36,972 bases of DNA, from positions 1 through 36,972 of IMG/VR virus record IMGVR_UViG_3300010371_000074. One strand, given 5' to 3'. Position numbers and translations under genes: made by a program. The notes under the pieces are model-generated. The model worked only from the letters and a program-made list of their open reading frames with translations. It was not told the origin of the DNA and searched no databases. This document shows, one piece after another, positions 5,766 to 33,206 of this stretch (the first letter of the stretch is position 1; each line of letters opens with the position of its first letter). The stretch is from a virus.

Positions 5766-6341
5766 ATGTCAACCAGAAATATCCGCGTTGGTTTTGAATT
5801 TGAATTTTTAACCTATAAAACATTCAAAGAAACAAGGGAATCTATTTCTCATGTACATGGATATGATGATTCTTGGATTATTGAAAGTGAAGGATTAGAA
5901 AAAGATTGGAATGCTCAAATACCAACAGAAGTAAAAACTTCGGTTTTTAATGGTAAAGTATATGGCAAAAGAGTAATACAATCTTTTTTAAGATATCTTA
6001 GGTATTGTTGCAGTACAAATGATAGCTGTTCCCTCCATATTAATTTATCATCGCAAGAAAATGGTTGGCAGTGGAATTTAAAGAGAAGAAAATTAATTCA
6101 AGAATCTAAACAGAAATATTGGTTGAGATATTTTGGTCGATCCGATAATGGCTATTGTTCCTCACAAGATTTAAACCATATTAAAAATGATAAATTTATG
6201 GCCATATCTTTTGATGATATTAACAGAGTAGAATTTAGAATCATTGGTGGAAAACATTATCAACGTAAGTCCGCGGCTATTTTAAAGGCTTATGATGATT
6301 TTGTAAATGCTTTTACAAACTCCTTGCAAAAGATTCAATAA
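5766..6341 (+). CDS. Amidoligase-like enzyme (COOH-NH2 ligase)
   Basis: The 191-residue product shows the marks of the putative amidoligase family, distant relatives of gamma-glutamylcysteine synthetase. It has VGFEFEF at residue 8 (ExE, metal/ATP site), CSLHINLS near residue 85, and RVEFRIIGG near residue 158. Family enzymes are thought to form amide bonds between carboxylates and amines, possibly on DNA, peptides or cell-surface molecules; the substrate here is unknown. It starts 3 bases after the upstream stop, so it is probably in the methyltransferase operon. Its 3' end overlaps the converging minus-strand gene by 29 bases. Confidence 0.75.
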   Translation: MSTRNIRVGFEFEFLTYKTFKETRESISHVHGYDDSWIIESEGLEKDWNAQIPTEVKTSVFNGKVYGKRVIQSFLRYLRYCCSTNDSCSLHINLSSQENGWQWNLKRRKLIQESKQKYWLRYFGRSDNGYCSSQDLNHIKNDKFMAISFDDINRVEFRIIGGKHYQRKSAAILKAYDDFVNAFTNSLQKIQ

Positions 6342-8148
6342 ATTTTGCAAGAAATAAAGTTTTCTTTTTAAATATTGCATTATTGCTTACCAAAATCTCA
6401 TTTAATTCATTTACATCCTCAATATGTTCTGATTCTATATTACGAGAATGTTGTTTAAAAGTATTTTGATCTACATAATAGAATTCATCATATCCAGATG
6501 ATGTAAGAGTAGTAAATCCAGTTTTTGCTATATTTGTTTTATGCACGCTATATTGTTTAATATCTATATTATTTCCACAAGCCATGGCCATGGAAATCTT
6601 ATCTGCACTACCAATATAAAATCCTAAAGATTTCATATGGTAAGTATCTTTTAAAAAATTGAGAAATGCTTGAGTTTTATTTTTATCATTATAAACTTTC
6701 CGAGTTTCTAAATTCCTTATCACTATATTTGAATCAATAACATCACCAGCGGCTCCATCTGTAATGGTTAAAAAGTTCATAATATCAATTGGATATTTTT
6801 CTTTAAATTTCTTAATAATAGTGTTCATTGTCATTAAAGCATGATTTAAAGGAGTTCCAGACATTTTATATCCAAGTGCCGTTGCATCATATTCTTCTTT
6901 TCCAATTTTAAGTAAAATTTCTAATCCTTTGTTATATTCCGAAAGGGTCATATTGGAACTTAAAAATTGGCATACGGTATTTACATCAGAAATTTCTACA
7001 TTTTTTGTGTAACCCATTCCACTCCATGGAAATTTTCCTGTTTTATTAAATCGAAATGTAAATCCATATACTTCAAATGGAATATTTTGTCTTTTACAGA
7101 ATTGTAAAATAGAAAATACTTGAAGAATTACATTTTTGATACAATTACACATAGATCCAGAAAAATCAATTAAAATGATTAATCCATGGTTTTTACCAAT
7201 AGGTTTAATTTCATTCGTAATAAAAATATCTTCAGAATATTTGTATTTAAATAATTTGGTAGGATTTAAAATACCATTTTTTGCAAATCTTGTTTTTTCG
7301 TAAGTATTGGCTGCTTTATATCGTTCAAATTGATTGCAAAGAAAATTAGATTCTTTTTTAAGTGTATTGAGAATTAATCCAACTGTTTTTCCATTAACAT
7401 TTTTAAAATCATCCAATATTCTTTTATACGGTCGGACTATTGTTTTTAATTGTTTATCTGAAACAATTGGTAAATTTTTATAATCCTGTTTGGCTTGTTT
7501 CGTATTACATTCTTTAGAAATAGCTTTATCAAAGGCTTCCTGAGTTAATGAGCCTTCACTAAGAATTCTTTTTTTCTTTTCATTATTAGATTTTTCCGCA
7601 TATTGTAATAATATTTTAGAATATTGGATAACTTCTTCCCATGTTTTAATATGTTCCAATTTATTGACAATTTCTTTTTCTTCTGGATTGGTAAAGATTA
7701 TTCCGGAATTAATACCACATTTAAAATAGAGATTAATCCGGTCTAAAAAATTAAAAGAATTTACATCTTTTCCTTTGGTAGCAAAGAAATCACCTTCGAG
7801 GAGTTTTTTATATCCAGTAACAAAAGATTTTCTAGCCCCAGGAAATTTGGTTTTAATTCTTTTTTCAATTCGTATATCTTCAACAATATTGAGAACATCA
7901 TGAGCGGTTTCTAATAACTCTGGTTTGTCTGTAACTAATTTACCAAAATGTTCTACAATTGGTGTATATAAAGCATGAGATATTTCATGAGTTACAAACA
8001 AATCTACTACATCTTCTCCAAGATTTTCGCTGTAAAGTGGTAAGGTTAATAATCTTTTTTGGACATCAAAAGATGCTGTATTTACTGGTTGGTGTTCTAC
8101 CAAAAGATTTTCAGTTGCCATCAATTTAGCTAAAATATCTTTATTCAT
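6313..8148 (-). CDS. HExxH peptidase-like plus VWA domain protein (CobT-like)
   Basis: This 611-residue protein is the only convincing minus-strand gene. Its N-terminus has a zinc-peptidase motif HEISH at residues 54-58, and its second half has a von Willebrand A domain with an intact MIDAS start DFSGSM near residue 330, followed by SGTPLNHAL and TDGAAGD segments. This architecture matches phage CobT-like proteins that partner with MoxR/CobS-type AAA ATPases, and such an ATPase lies 280 bases away in divergent orientation. By analogy the pair may remodel a protein or insert metal; no cobalamin genes are present. Transcription probably starts at the ATG itself from the extended -10 just upstream. 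Confidence 0.82.
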   Translation of the reverse strand: MNKDILAKLMATENLLVEHQPVNTASFDVQKRLLTLPLYSENLGEDVVDLFVTHEISHALYTPIVEHFGKLVTDKPELLETAHDVLNIVEDIRIEKRIKTKFPGARKSFVTGYKKLLEGDFFATKGKDVNSFNFLDRINLYFKCGINSGIIFTNPEEKEIVNKLEHIKTWEEVIQYSKILLQYAEKSNNEKKKRILSEGSLTQEAFDKAISKECNTKQAKQDYKNLPIVSDKQLKTIVRPYKRILDDFKNVNGKTVGLILNTLKKESNFLCNQFERYKAANTYEKTRFAKNGILNPTKLFKYKYSEDIFITNEIKPIGKNHGLIILIDFSGSMCNCIKNVILQVFSILQFCKRQNIPFEVYGFTFRFNKTGKFPWSGMGYTKNVEISDVNTVCQFLSSNMTLSEYNKGLEILLKIGKEEYDATALGYKMSGTPLNHALMTMNTIIKKFKEKYPIDIMNFLTITDGAAGDVIDSNIVIRNLETRKVYNDKNKTQAFLNFLKDTYHMKSLGFYIGSADKISMAMACGNNIDIKQYSVHKTNIAKTGFTTLTSSGYDEFYYVDQNTFKQHSRNIESEHIEDVNELNEILVSNNAIFKKKTLFLAKFIESFARSL

Positions 8149-28133: not shown

Positions 28134-28282
28134 TTGAATGGAATATTGTTTGGTCATTTCTTATGGGTTTAGGAATTACATGTGGTATTATTTTTGTTAT
28201 TTGGTTAATATTTCAATTAATTTGTTTAATGGTTTTAGCTAAAGGTATTACAGGATCATTCTTTGGTTTCTTTAGAAAATAA
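28130..28282 (+). CDS. Small membrane protein (50 residues)
   Basis: An ATG inside the last codon of the deaminase opens a 50-residue frame that is mostly hydrophobic (for example GLGITCGIIFVIWLIFQLI), with one long or two short membrane segments and a short tail FFGFFRK. Its TAA shares one base with the next ATG (TAATG). Its precise fit between neighbours supports it. Holin-like action is conceivable but unsupported. Confidence 0.6.
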   Translation: MIEWNIVWSFLMGLGITCGIIFVIWLIFQLICLMVLAKGITGSFFGFFRK

Positions 28283-29403
28283 TGGCTCAGTTACGATCCA
28301 CAGGATTTGGTCGATTATCTAAATATAATTCTGGGATTATTGAAATTCTAAATCAATCTTTTGAAACTGGTTCACCAGTTTCATTTGGTCCAAATCAACA
28401 CATTGTAAAAAATAATCACTTTAATAAAAATCAATTAATACAATATGTTGATTTGGTTTCTTTAGGTAAAGAAAAAGAAGCATTAAAATTATTATTGGAG
28501 ATAGAAACTCCAAATAGACCTACCATTACATTTGGTTCATTATCAAAACCAAAAATTAATTATAATTTTGGTGATATTACAGAAGCAATTTTAGCTATTG
28601 CTTTATATTGTAGATTTTCATGTAAAAAAGAAATAGAGGAAAATGATGTATATGACCAATTAGAATTGATAGATTTGTGTCTTGGTTTAATCATTAAAAT
28701 TCCAGAATCTAGTTTAAATTTTTTGAAAGATGAAAAGAATCAAGAATTTTTAAAACCAATCATTACCTCTTGTATTAAATTTACTAATTTATTAAAAATT
28801 CCAAAAGGAGAGCATATTTGGGTAATTTGTGATGGAATTTCACATGCTAAAACTGCAAAAGAAGATGTAAGTGTTATTTGTGATGGAAAAACAATTCATA
28901 AATTTTCTGTAAAATATGGTGATGTAAAGCAATTCGGACAGGTCTCCGGATCAACGTTTCAAAAACAATGTGAATTATGGAAATCTTTATTGAATTTGGA
29001 TTTAGAATTTTTGGAATGTGTTTTTGATGATTCCGATATTTTAATGTCTACCAATTTGGTATATGCCTTTGTAGCACATACCTTTAATCAATTGGATTTA
29101 AAAAATAATTTAGGTAATGGTATCAATTATTTTATTTCAAGAAATGATTCCAGTATCCAATTAGTACAATTTAAATCTAAAAGAGAAATTTATTTCTTTG
29201 ATACCACAAAGATATATGATACACTGAAACTAGAAAATATATCATCACAATTTGATACGAATGATGATTTTAAACCAAAAGTAATGTTCGAGGATATTCT
29301 GACCGTAAGGATAAAAATGGAATCAACATTAAAAGGTTTATATATGAGAAATTATTTGGAAAAGGAAAAAGGATTTACTCAGTTATTTGGTAAACAAATT
29401 TAG
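28282..29403 (+). CDS. Phage protein with possible PD-(D/E)XK-like core
   Basis: The 373-residue protein is not securely recognised. Its clearest segment, near residues 183-225, has EDVSVICDGKTIHKFSVKYGDVKQFGQVSG. This resembles a nuclease core with Asp, then strand K-F-S-V-K, and I recall similar SxKxGxVKQFGQ segments in T4-like marine phage proteins. There is a YLEKEKGFTQLFGKQI end. A PD-(D/E)XK nuclease or a domain of different function are both possible. It stops at TAG, and the next gene follows in the same frame after two codons. Confidence 0.5.
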   Translation: MAQLRSTGFGRLSKYNSGIIEILNQSFETGSPVSFGPNQHIVKNNHFNKNQLIQYVDLVSLGKEKEALKLLLEIETPNRPTITFGSLSKPKINYNFGDITEAILAIALYCRFSCKKEIEENDVYDQLELIDLCLGLIIKIPESSLNFLKDEKNQEFLKPIITSCIKFTNLLKIPKGEHIWVICDGISHAKTAKEDVSVICDGKTIHKFSVKYGDVKQFGQVSGSTFQKQCELWKSLLNLDLEFLECVFDDSDILMSTNLVYAFVAHTFNQLDLKNNLGNGINYFISRNDSSIQLVQFKSKREIYFFDTTKIYDTLKLENISSQFDTNDDFKPKVMFEDILTVRIKMESTLKGLYMRNYLEKEKGFTQLFGKQI

Positions 29404-29604: not shown

Positions 29605-29838
29605 ATGGTATTCAAAACAAATAATTCTACATATGAAGTAGATGGAATGGAAATTAGGAGAATCTCTGGAACCAATCCACCTACTAACCATTTTTCGCCT
29701 GATGGCGAATGGAAAACATTTAAAGACATTAGTTCTATCCAAATTAATTATCCTGTTTGGATCTCCTGGCTAGATGGTAAATATACACAAACTTCTGTTG
29801 TACAATTTATTGAAATTCAGGATCCAATGAATGCATGA
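29605..29838 (+). CDS. Small hypothetical protein
   Basis: The 77-residue product abuts the upstream stop and overlaps the ligase-like gene by 8 bases. It has a beta-rich pattern, with GMEIRRISGTNPPTNHFSPDGEWKTF-like turns (split: GMEIRRISG, then HFSPDGEWKTF) and WISWLDGKYTQTS. No family is recognised. Confidence 0.5.
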   Translation: MVFKTNNSTYEVDGMEIRRISGTNPPTNHFSPDGEWKTFKDISSIQINYPVWISWLDGKYTQTSVVQFIEIQDPMNA

Positions 29839-30799
29839 TCATATTGAACATTTGGAAGATTTATTACTTACTGGTGAATTGAAAAAATTAACTGAGATTT
29901 TACAAGATATTATTCTTAATAGAGTCCAATATTCTATAAAATATGATGGTTCACCTGCTTTAGTTTTTGGTAAAGATCCAAATACACAAAAAATTTTTGT
30001 TGGAACTAAATCTGCTTTTAATAAAAAGAAAAAAATTAGATGTACTACACCAAATGAAATTGATGAACATTACCACAATAAACCATTTTGTGGTGCTTTA
30101 CAGTGTTTGTTAGAACATTTAAAACCATTTTCTTTAAATGAAATTATTCAATCTGATATGTTATGGTTTAAAGGATTAATCAATGAATATGAATTTACCA
30201 AGAATTTTTTACATTCAAAACCAAATACAATTGAATATATTTTACCAAAACCTGCGGAACAAATTTCTTTAATTATAGTTCCTCATTCTCAAACCAATCA
30301 TTTCTTAATTGATAATAATTATTTTCAACCAATTAATCAAATTACTTTAAATGAATTATTAATGTGTGGAATTGGTATTATAGATCCAAGAATTTTTTCT
30401 TTTAGTTTAAAAAATATCAAAAATATTACAGAAATAATTATTGATATTAAGGATGATGTAAGTTTTACTTATGATCCTGATGATAAAAAACTAGTTAATG
30501 ATTTATTAAGGAATGATGAATATTACAATTTTCCTGTATCCATGAAATGGAAATATTATCAAGACCTAATTAACATTAAAGAAAGTTTATATGATCAATT
30601 AAATCGGTTTGTATTATCAAGAAATATAATATCATTACCGTATCTAAATAATTTTGGTTATTATCACGAAGGATTTGTAGTTTCTAATAAAGATATTATA
30701 GTAAAAATTGTTGATCGTACCTTGTTTAGTAAACAAAATTTCTTGGAAAAAGATGCAATTTACAGAAAAAAATCTAAACCAATTTCTCAAGGAAGCTAA
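29831..30799 (+). CDS. Ligase-like nucleotidyltransferase (KxDG protein)
   Basis: The 322-residue protein has YSIKYDGSPALVFGKD with Lys37 in a KxDG motif I, as in the ATP-grasp of RNA and DNA ligases and related T4-like phage proteins (IKWDGSPA...). Later it has motif IV HEGFVVS and motif V DIIVKIVDR near residues 280-300. This combination suggests adenylation through Lys37, and it probably belongs to the conserved ligase-like family of T4-like marine phages, whose substrate is unknown. It overlaps the nucleotidyltransferase/Acb1-like gene by 47 bases, so the two probably work together. Confidence 0.72.
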   Translation: MHDHIEHLEDLLLTGELKKLTEILQDIILNRVQYSIKYDGSPALVFGKDPNTQKIFVGTKSAFNKKKKIRCTTPNEIDEHYHNKPFCGALQCLLEHLKPFSLNEIIQSDMLWFKGLINEYEFTKNFLHSKPNTIEYILPKPAEQISLIIVPHSQTNHFLIDNNYFQPINQITLNELLMCGIGIIDPRIFSFSLKNIKNITEIIIDIKDDVSFTYDPDDKKLVNDLLRNDEYYNFPVSMKWKYYQDLINIKESLYDQLNRFVLSRNIISLPYLNNFGYYHEGFVVSNKDIIVKIVDRTLFSKQNFLEKDAIYRKKSKPISQGS

Positions 30800-31823
30800 T
30801 GAAAATTACAAGTCCATTAGTTTTACATTCATGCGGGCAAATCCGCCTACAATTGGTCATCAAAAAGTACTTTCAAAATTAGATACTATTTCACGATCCT
30901 ATCATACAGAATCTAAAGTATACCTTTCTCATACACAAGATAAAAAGAAAAATCCATTAACATTTGAAGAAAAAGTCCATATTTTTGAAAAAGCTTTTCC
31001 GAAAATAAATATTGAAAAAGATTCAAATATTAGAACCATTTTTGATGTTTTGGAATCTTTAAATGAACAAGGTTATAAGAAAGTAAATTTGGTAGTTGGT
31101 AGTGATAGAAAAGCAGAATTTGATCATATTATTCCACCCTATCTAAAAGAATATAATTTTGATAAATTCCAAATCATTTCCGCTGGTAATAGAATTGTTG
31201 AAAGCTTTGATGATATTGATATGTCTGCTACCAAATTACGGGAATTTGCAATAAATGGTAATTTAGAGGCATTCAAGTCTGGTTGTTTTTTTAATCTTTC
31301 CGAAGAATTTAAAACCGTAATCTATTATAAAATCCGTGAAAGATTGATTAAAGAAGAGATATTTCAACATCCAAAGATGGGAACATATTCCTGTTTTAAA
31401 TTGGATGAAGAATCTTCTAATAATTTACATAAATGGTCCAAATCAAATGGTATTGAAAATATTTTGCAACCACACGAATATCATTCAACTGTAGTTTACT
31501 CTCCAACAGCAAATGTGGATGATGTTTATATCCCATATTCTAGTGAACCATTTCAAATTCATCCAAATACATATAAAATTGGTATTTTAGGTGAGGCATT
31601 AGTTTTACATTATGATCATGAAATACCAAGAAATCAATTTAAACATTCTATTGCAATTGGTGCTCATACCGAATTTCCTGATTACCAACCTCATATTTCT
31701 TTATCTTATAAATCTTCAGTAATTCCTGAAAATCCACCAAATTTTCCAATTACTTTACATCATGAAAAAGTAGAACCATTGAATCCAGAAGGATTTGATA
31801 CTTCCAAATATATTAAACAATAA
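30753..31823 (+). CDS. NMNAT-like nucleotidyltransferase fused to Acb1-like 2H phosphoesterase
   Basis: The N-terminal half of this 356-residue protein is a HxGH-type nucleotidyltransferase: FMRANPPTIGHQKVL at residues 26-40, and SATKLREFA near residue 158 (family ISSTxxR). Such domains make NAD or activate nucleotides. The C-terminal half has LHKWSKSNGI, HSTVVYS with His244/Thr246, and YQPHISLSY with His314/Ser316, the two HxT/S motifs and surrounding pattern of T4 Acb1, the anti-CBASS phosphodiesterase that cleaves cyclic nucleotide signals. ATG 30753 is preferred over TTG 30708; it follows a GGA-rich stretch. The gene overlaps the ligase-like gene by 47 bases. Confidence 0.78.
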   Translation: MQFTEKNLNQFLKEANENYKSISFTFMRANPPTIGHQKVLSKLDTISRSYHTESKVYLSHTQDKKKNPLTFEEKVHIFEKAFPKINIEKDSNIRTIFDVLESLNEQGYKKVNLVVGSDRKAEFDHIIPPYLKEYNFDKFQIISAGNRIVESFDDIDMSATKLREFAINGNLEAFKSGCFFNLSEEFKTVIYYKIRERLIKEEIFQHPKMGTYSCFKLDEESSNNLHKWSKSNGIENILQPHEYHSTVVYSPTANVDDVYIPYSSEPFQIHPNTYKIGILGEALVLHYDHEIPRNQFKHSIAIGAHTEFPDYQPHISLSYKSSVIPENPPNFPITLHHEKVEPLNPEGFDTSKYIKQ

Positions 31824-32048: not shown

Positions 32049-33206
32049 ATGCCACAATGGTCTAGAACGGTTGCCCCCAAATTTAATTACCTAACATCTA
32101 AAGGTAGAACTGCTGTTCCTGGTAAAGGTGGTTGGTATTCACCATCAGGTGAATTACTAATTGCAATGTCAACACCACCAACAATTAACACTACAACAGC
32201 ATCTACAGTAAAAGTAGCCTATGTTGGTAAAAGCAAACAATTAAGAACTGGTGATAAATTATTATTTTTTGTGGAATTTGATCAATCTGTTACGGTAACA
32301 GGATCTCCACAAATTGCATTTAGTTTAAATGGTAATGCAAAAAATGCTACCTATTCATTCGGTTCTGGTACAGCACAATTAATTTTTTCATATACCATTG
32401 TTGGTGGTGATAGTGCCACTGCGGGTCAGGTCACAATTACAGAACCAGCAAAAGCAACCCATACATTTGGTGCTGGTAATTCAGCTATTACAATTACAGC
32501 AAATGCCAACGGAACTGGTGGAAATAGTATTACAGTAGCATTTGTAAATACTGCCGGATCAGAAGCATTATCGGTTGGTGTTTCAGGAAATGCCATTACA
32601 GTGACATTAGCAACCGATGGTAGTGATGTTGTAACTTCTACGGTAGATGATGTAATTACAGCAATTAATAACAATACAAATGCAAATGCCTTAGTAACAG
32701 CAAGTACCGCAGGTGATGGAACTGGTTTAGTTGCCGCAGCAACCGCTACCGCACTTGCTGGTGGTGTAGCTGGGTCATCCATTTCATTAAATTCTGGTAC
32801 AATTAAAAATACATTAGGAGTAAGTGCTAGCCATACATTTGGTTCAGCAAATGCCGCTGTTACATTTACTTCGGTTGTTGATGGTACTTCTGGAAATTCT
32901 TTGAATGTTGTTTTAGCTGTAGCTGGTAACAGTACACCATTATCATTAAGTTATAATTCTGGTACCAAAACTCTAACCGTAAATTTGGCAACAAATTCTG
33001 GTGGAACTGCAACATCTAATGTATCGGATGTAATTTCATTAGTAAATAATAGCAATTTAGTAAATGGAATATTTAAAGTTTCAACAGCAGGTGATGGAAC
33101 TGGAACCGTAGGTTCAGCAACATCTACCGCACTTGCTGGTGGTACAAATACCGCAGTTACCCTAGCCTTACCGAATATTGATTTAAGCCAAGTTGCTGTT
33201 AACTAA
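32049..33206 (+). CDS. Ig-like and adhesin-repeat structural protein
   Basis: The 385-residue Ser/Thr/Gly-rich protein is probably a virion surface or decoration protein. Residues ~53-135 resemble a bacterial Ig-like (SwmB-type) domain: SKQLRTGDKLLFFVEFDQSV, GSPQIAFSLNGNAKNATY, GSGTAQLIFSYTIVGGD. Then two repeats of about 105 residues follow (from ATHTFGAGNSAIT and from ASHTFGSANAAVT), each ending STAGDGTG...ATALAGG or similar. This repeat is common in tail, sheath and decoration proteins. It begins MPQWSRTVAPKFN, a terminus of a type seen in T4-like structural proteins. Base use is less AT-rich than in neighbours because of Ala/Gly/Thr content. Confidence 0.72.
   Translation: MPQWSRTVAPKFNYLTSKGRTAVPGKGGWYSPSGELLIAMSTPPTINTTTASTVKVAYVGKSKQLRTGDKLLFFVEFDQSVTVTGSPQIAFSLNGNAKNATYSFGSGTAQLIFSYTIVGGDSATAGQVTITEPAKATHTFGAGNSAITITANANGTGGNSITVAFVNTAGSEALSVGVSGNAITVTLATDGSDVVTSTVDDVITAINNNTNANALVTASTAGDGTGLVAAATATALAGGVAGSSISLNSGTIKNTLGVSASHTFGSANAAVTFTSVVDGTSGNSLNVVLAVAGNSTPLSLSYNSGTKTLTVNLATNSGGTATSNVSDVISLVNNSNLVNGIFKVSTAGDGTGTVGSATSTALAGGTNTAVTLALPNIDLSQVAVN

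Follow-up and report, generated by a model that had tools for sequence, protein, structure and literature searches.

An Acb1-family domain fused to a cyanophage-type nucleotidyltransferase in a distant T4-like phage

We analyzed a 36,972-nt metagenome fragment (hereafter the window). It carries genes for a clamp, a clamp loader, a DNA polymerase, UvsX, gp41, a dUTPase, Hsp20 and a dCMP deaminase, and its polymerase is 38% identical to those of Synechococcus phages. Judged by these genes, the window is from a T4-like phage that is a distant relative of the cyanophages. Adjoining the replication genes are two overlapping ORFs, the second of which joins a nucleotidyltransferase (NTase) to an Acb1 domain. 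The features are as follows.

29831 to 30799, plus strand: DUF6267 protein (PF19782), putative RNA-ligase-type adenylyltransferase, 322 aa
30753 to 31823, plus strand: NTase-Acb1 fusion protein (P0001), 356 aa, frame open from the ATG at 30753 to the stop at 31823
30804 to 31361, plus strand: N-terminal HxGH-type NTase domain, approximately residues 18-203, with PPTIGH at 31-36 and SATKLR at 158-163
31380 to 31787, plus strand: C-terminal Acb1 2H phosphoesterase domain, residues 210-345, with catalytic H244, T246, H314 and S316
Within the Acb1 domain: base-stacking residues Y212, F267 and F308, and also E341 (residue mapping against PMC9117128)

The gene order UvsX - gp41 - DUF6267 - NTase - T4-GC198 homologue is common to the window and cyanophage S-SZBM1; S-BM3 has the same order except for DUF6267, which did not turn up in the stretch examined. 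In the window, a gene for a 373-aa protein (28282-29403, phrog_3560) lies upstream of DUF6267, and directly downstream of the fusion is one for a 385-aa Ala/Thr/Gly-rich protein that weakly matches virion structural proteins (32049-33206). The sole long minus-strand gene codes for a 611-aa peptidase-family protein (6313-8148, phrog_459). No T4-type late promoter (TATAAATA) was found near the fusion gene, and over the window (1-36972) this core was observed once, when compared with 10.8 expected.

The C-terminal half was assigned by profile, by sequence and by predicted structure. Pfam PF23474 (Acb1) matched residues 210-345 with 81.7 bits (E 5.8e-23; curated cut-off 27 bits), and no other 2H family was matched in P0001 up to E = 1. 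The Acb1 of phage FBB1 (7t26) was the sole significant PDB sequence match (phmmer, E 1.5e-8). With VIA-align the predicted structure superposed on 7t26 over 131 residues at 1.8 Å (Z 18.3), the next 2H protein being a Burkholderia phage BCSR5 phosphodiesterase (Z 14.1), and with Foldseek E. coli LigT was a weaker match than Acb1 (E 3.6e-5 vs. 8e-10). In PHROGs, residues 208-345 correspond to phrog_755, labelled 'RNA ligase', a label frequent on T4 57B homologues. The matches of both halves lie well outside chance, and we are nearly certain that the C-terminal domain is a true member of the Acb1 family and not of another 2H family. An earlier sequence-only reading had proposed an Acb1-like domain fused to an NMNAT-like nucleotidyltransferase. 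The 2H motifs lie where it had placed them (H244/T246 in HST, H314/S316 in HIS), the structural comparison that it advised gave the superposition on a solved Acb1, and the better fit to another 2H family that would have spoken against it did not appear by Pfam, VIA-align or Foldseek. It erred in taking LHKWSKSNGI for a T4-like stretch: T4-type 57B has LEELQRSLRV there, and the closest counterpart comes from other Acb1 proteins that stand alone (L171, with KLHDWLETNKI).

T4 Acb1 contacts its substrate through Y12, W74, F107, E141 and W147 (PMC9117128). By residue mapping, the first four positions correspond to Y212, F267, F308 and E341 of the window protein, and the lid W147 to Gly347, with Phe348 one residue off. 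The last catalytic position is Ser316, not Thr; Ser is also found there in stand-alone Acb1s (e.g., L171 and L177). The domain is likely to be enzymatically active.

The AlphaFold2 model of the fusion (17-row alignment) reached a mean pLDDT of 86 and a pTM of 0.59, suggesting two well-predicted domains whose mutual placing is uncertain. Folding relied on a smaller set that aligned well (alignment A8); a mixed set that pooled numerous NTase-only and Acb1-only fragments came out misaligned and was discarded. PADLOC defence-system models gave 0 matches for P0001, the DUF6267 protein, L109 (a fused relative, see below) and the ORF at 28282. The VIA lists named no further family, an absence that carries no weight.

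In the N-terminal half, both nucleotidyltransferase motifs (T33-I-G-H36 and S158-A-T-K-L-R163) and an HxGH fold are present in alignment and predicted structure, and invariant NTase columns were seen across 14 relatives. Residues 4-206 match phrog_3041 (E 4e-45) and phrog_395 (E 3e-39), 'cytidyltransferase', and residues 20-178 share 39% identity with SSZBM1_140 of S-SZBM1. By homology and by its identical genome position, the domain belongs to the cyanophage 'cytidylyltransferase' family (T4-GC190). The fold scores of CoaD (Z 14.3), NadM (13.8) and archaeal NMNAT (13.5) tie (VIA-align), so that the model points to no single substrate. The best NadD profile score was 18.1 bits vs. an equivalog cut-off of 167, and the RDPD stretch common in the family reads RIVE in the window. 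Of the NMNAT-like half proposed earlier, the nucleotidyltransferase motifs and the HxGH fold hold, but the NMNAT specificity is unsupported, given the equal scores of CoaD and NadM and the low NadD score.

The phage NTase domain (alignment A9; L037, L031, L008 and others) is elsewhere fused to DUF5824 (18/55), to Zeta-toxin/AAA_33 kinases (9/55) and to RimK ATP-grasp enzymes (3/55). This points to the NTase as a hub with swappable C-terminal enzymes (Acb1, kinases, ATP-grasp).

The ORF upstream, which the sequence-only reading overlooked while describing the fusion ORF itself correctly, belongs to the same module. DUF6267 (PF19782, E 2.2e-43) and the fusion ORF share 47 nt, read in different frames. 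Of the 230 distinct NTase domains, 8 are joined to DUF6267 in one chain; a further 61 lie within 100 nt after a DUF6267, 55 at 101-600 nt and 43 at 601-3000 nt, and 52 are without DUF6267 in the fetched locus DNA. Twelve positions are invariant in 36 DUF6267 sequences (H7, K37, D39, K60, Q107, P131, Y136, H152, E280, G281, V283 and K292). ATP-dependent ligases have KxDG as motif I, EGxV as motif IV and K as motif V, and in the window these occur in order as K37-Y-D39-G40, E280-G-F-V283 and K292. Compared with the PDB, the predicted structure (pLDDT 82) matched ligases of DNA or RNA almost exclusively, although the Foldseek E-values were weak (best 0.06). With VIA, all 50 rows were ligases, the best being Naegleria RNA ligase (Z 9.2), the Trl1 ligase domain (8.4), T4 Rnl1 (7.9) and Rnl2 (7.8). 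Because of the ordered motifs and the fold matches, we read DUF6267 as probably a ligase-type adenylyltransferase.

At the junction of the two ORFs, 95 nt are open in both frames and include a run of seven A. A programmed +1 frameshift joining DUF6267 and NTase was entertained because relatives carry both in one chain. The predicted RNA structure is unremarkable (z -0.34) and an ATG is present, which makes ordinary overlapping genes the simpler account.

Across 50,697 phage records, neither the fusion protein nor the three-domain protein described below was covered to 80% at any one place, and an IMG/VR scan with the Acb1 half as a single sequence found nothing. With alignments as queries, which were needed to find fused relatives in IMG/VR, eight contigs with three distinct sequences were recovered (L109, L282-L286, L306 and L311), and the last alignment scan returned the same eight and no more. 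They are ∼30% identical to the window over NTase and Acb1; L109 and others match residues 16-346 of the fusion ORF. All eight carry DUF6267-NTase-Acb1 in one chain, of ∼760-780 residues where the ORF is complete. An assembly artefact is ruled out by the presence of the fusion in eight other contigs. The fusion proposed earlier is therefore real and recurs in other viruses, and the search in other phages that had been suggested found it in these IMG/VR contigs and not in the phage records. Among the fetched loci, chosen by similarity and so not a census, four distinct sequences are fused out of 230 distinct NTase and 122 distinct Acb1 domains, which makes the fusion rare in this sample. The concern that the two halves might be separate genes in relatives applies in part: the NTase is without Acb1 in most relatives and T4 Acb1 stands alone, but the second fused lineage keeps one chain. 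The sequence-only reading knew of no described fusion of this kind, and neither the papers searched nor the annotated phage records yielded one.

The three-domain fusion is followed immediately, on the opposite strand, by an ORF of 266-270 aa (L109:3298-4098, L311:3830-4642 and L306:7107-7919, all minus strand). The L109 copy has a pol-beta-like NTase motif (GSVGKKPSSGDLDIAVD), and the L306 and L311 copies gave no PHROG match.

Many prophages of Alphaproteobacteria and Pseudomonas (L085 phiPSA1, L083 Ssp-JY40, L251-L276) also carry an Acb1-type domain, there as the C-terminal tail of the portal protein. In the Acb1 tree, both fused lineages group with stand-alone Acb1s, including the T4 type, apart from the portal tails (SH-aLRT 100). 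A single clade for both fused lineages was neither established nor rejected (p-AU 0.189 for Acb1 and 0.844 for NTase). The four catalytic positions (HxT and HxS) are kept in the window and in the second fused lineage, whose Acb1 domain scored 56-57 bits with PF23474. That lineage has Ile or Val in place of the Tyr12 equivalent, and its substrate may therefore differ. Its dN was 0.18-0.21 for Acb1, 0.07-0.12 for NTase and 0.10-0.21 for DUF6267, with dS >1 and partly saturated (1.4 or more for Acb1). The low dN relative to dS shows that all three domains are held by purifying selection.

The earlier account named the domains and missed the virion link of the NTase family. T4-GC190 was detected by mass spectrometry in S-SM1 virions (PMC3037559), and SSZBM1_140, the homologue at the position of the window NTase, in those of S-SZBM1 (PMC9146016). 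NMNAT- or cytidylyltransferase-like proteins were found in virions of S-CREM2 (ORF154) and S-SCSM1 (an NMNAT-like protein), and both papers allow for carry-over of abundant protein (PMC10665884, PMC9602691). The virion-detected homologues are all without Acb1. The three-domain fusions adjoin virion structural and baseplate-wedge genes. By analogy with these homologues, the window fusion protein may be present in the particle and may enter the cell; the position of its gene beside the replication genes counts against this.

We favor, with a probability of roughly 0.6, the reading that a working Acb1 nuclease is tethered to a virion-associated NTase, which may allow CBASS signals to be removed at an early stage of infection. 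The ORF at 30753-31823 is the positional orthologue of T4-GC190 with a catalytically complete Acb1 appended at its C-terminus. Its Acb1 domain would most likely hydrolyze the cyclic di- and trinucleotide signals of CBASS by the known two-step, metal-free HxT/HxS reaction, and this hydrolysis would block abortive infection. The NTase domain would work with the DUF6267 protein, a probable ligase-type adenylyltransferase, and probably anchors Acb1 inside or close to the particle; destruction of the signal may then start once the particle contents enter the cell. Computation shows the two domains and their recurrent fusion, the catalytic residues and, by mapping, most contact residues, the purifying selection in the second lineage and the partnership with DUF6267; we infer the activity, the CBASS target, the presence of the fusion protein in the particle and its passage into the cell. 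In T4, Acb1 is known as a free protein that is produced in the course of infection, and fusion to a family found in particles suggests delivery at entry. A broader proposal, which we offer tentatively as a possibility, is that T4-like phages bring a pre-made anti-CBASS nuclease into the cell within the particle through this fusion with its ligase-like partner, acting before phage gene expression, and that ligase, NTase and 2H together form a new complex for nucleotide processing. The DUF6267-NTase pair is widespread and unstudied in marine T4-like phages.

The main alternative is that the same module serves RNA-end repair. The fungal tRNA ligase Trl1 has a ligase-kinase-2H arrangement, and here DUF6267 would be the RNA ligase, the 2H domain would open the 2′,3′-cyclic phosphates of RNA broken by host ribonucleases, and the NTase would help to activate or modify the ends. 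The ligase motifs and RNA-ligase fold matches of DUF6267 fit this account, as does the fusion of 9/55 NTase relatives to P-loop kinases, which places ligase, kinase and 2H modules all around one hub. The Foldseek E-values of DUF6267 are weak, however, kinase and 2H were together in no relative found, and the 2H domain has the specific features of Acb1, including most substrate-contact residues by mapping, and not those of CPDase or LigT. Moreover, the product of T4 Acb1 keeps its 3′-phosphate (GpAp[3']; PMC9117128), which is unusable for Trl1-type ligation, and we regard end repair as rather unlikely. If the 2H domain acts merely by binding, as a sponge or structural appendage, the many Acb1-type portal tails, for which a structural role is possible, would offer a parallel, and the second lineage, which lacks the Tyr12 equivalent, would fit. 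This is very unlikely with all four catalytic positions intact in both lineages and the Acb1 domain under purifying selection in the second.

A double counter-defence, the idea of the earlier reading, was also considered, in which Acb1 removes CBASS signals and an N-terminal NMN/NaMN adenylyltransferase restores the NAD lost to defence effectors. The HxGH-type fold, whose matches include NadD, NadM and NMNAT, the weak NadD profile match and the annotation of cyanophage homologues as NMNAT (PMC9602691) are in its favor, and in phage the separate, unrelated proteins RyDEP and NARP1 pair signal cleavage with NAD synthesis (PMC13232231). CoaD, however, matches as well as NMNAT, the NadD score falls far below its cut-off (18 bits vs. 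167) and the family RDPD stretch is altered to RIVE. The usual partner of the NTase is ligase-like and not an NAD-salvage enzyme, and its other fused partners (ATP-grasp, kinase, DUF5824) are not NAD-specific pointers. We consider this scenario unlikely; an NAD-making N-terminal half is possible but unsupported. The other idea of the earlier reading, in which one domain would process what the other makes, is likewise unsupported.

Compared with known systems, the tethered nuclease that we favor combines parts that are each familiar: Acb1 and the cyanophage NTase have each been described on their own, and their fusion is new as far as searched. The window domain has in common with T4 Acb1 (gene 57B; PDB 7t26/7t27, PMC9117128) the fold, the HxT/HxS pairs and, by residue mapping, most substrate contacts, with T115 replaced by Ser and W74 by Phe. 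T4 Acb1 is a free 152-aa protein encoded beside gp1 and gp57A, whereas the window Acb1 makes up the C-terminal portion of a 356-aa fusion encoded in a different part of the genome. The cyanophage T4-GC190 proteins (SSZBM1_140 and SBM3_00121 of S-BM3) occupy the same slot as the window NTase, with UvsX and gp41 ahead of it and the T4-GC198 homologue behind, and with DUF6267 upstream in S-SZBM1 as in the window, but their C-terminal part differs and is without an Acb1 domain. DUF6267 and the RNA ligases (Naegleria, the Trl1 ligase domain, T4 Rnl1/Rnl2) have in common the motif order KxDG, EGxV, K and appear alike in predicted fold, but share 8-13% sequence identity, and the partner of DUF6267 is an HxGH NTase. 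RyDEP with NARP1 (PMC13232231), like the fusion, couples removal of a nucleotide alarm to a nucleotide-transfer pathway in a phage, but with other enzyme folds, another signal (cADPR) and separate genes. The tailed portal proteins (gp44 of phiPSA1 and those of prophages) likewise place an Acb1-family domain on a virion protein, in a clade of their own and with the portal, not an NTase, as the carrier.
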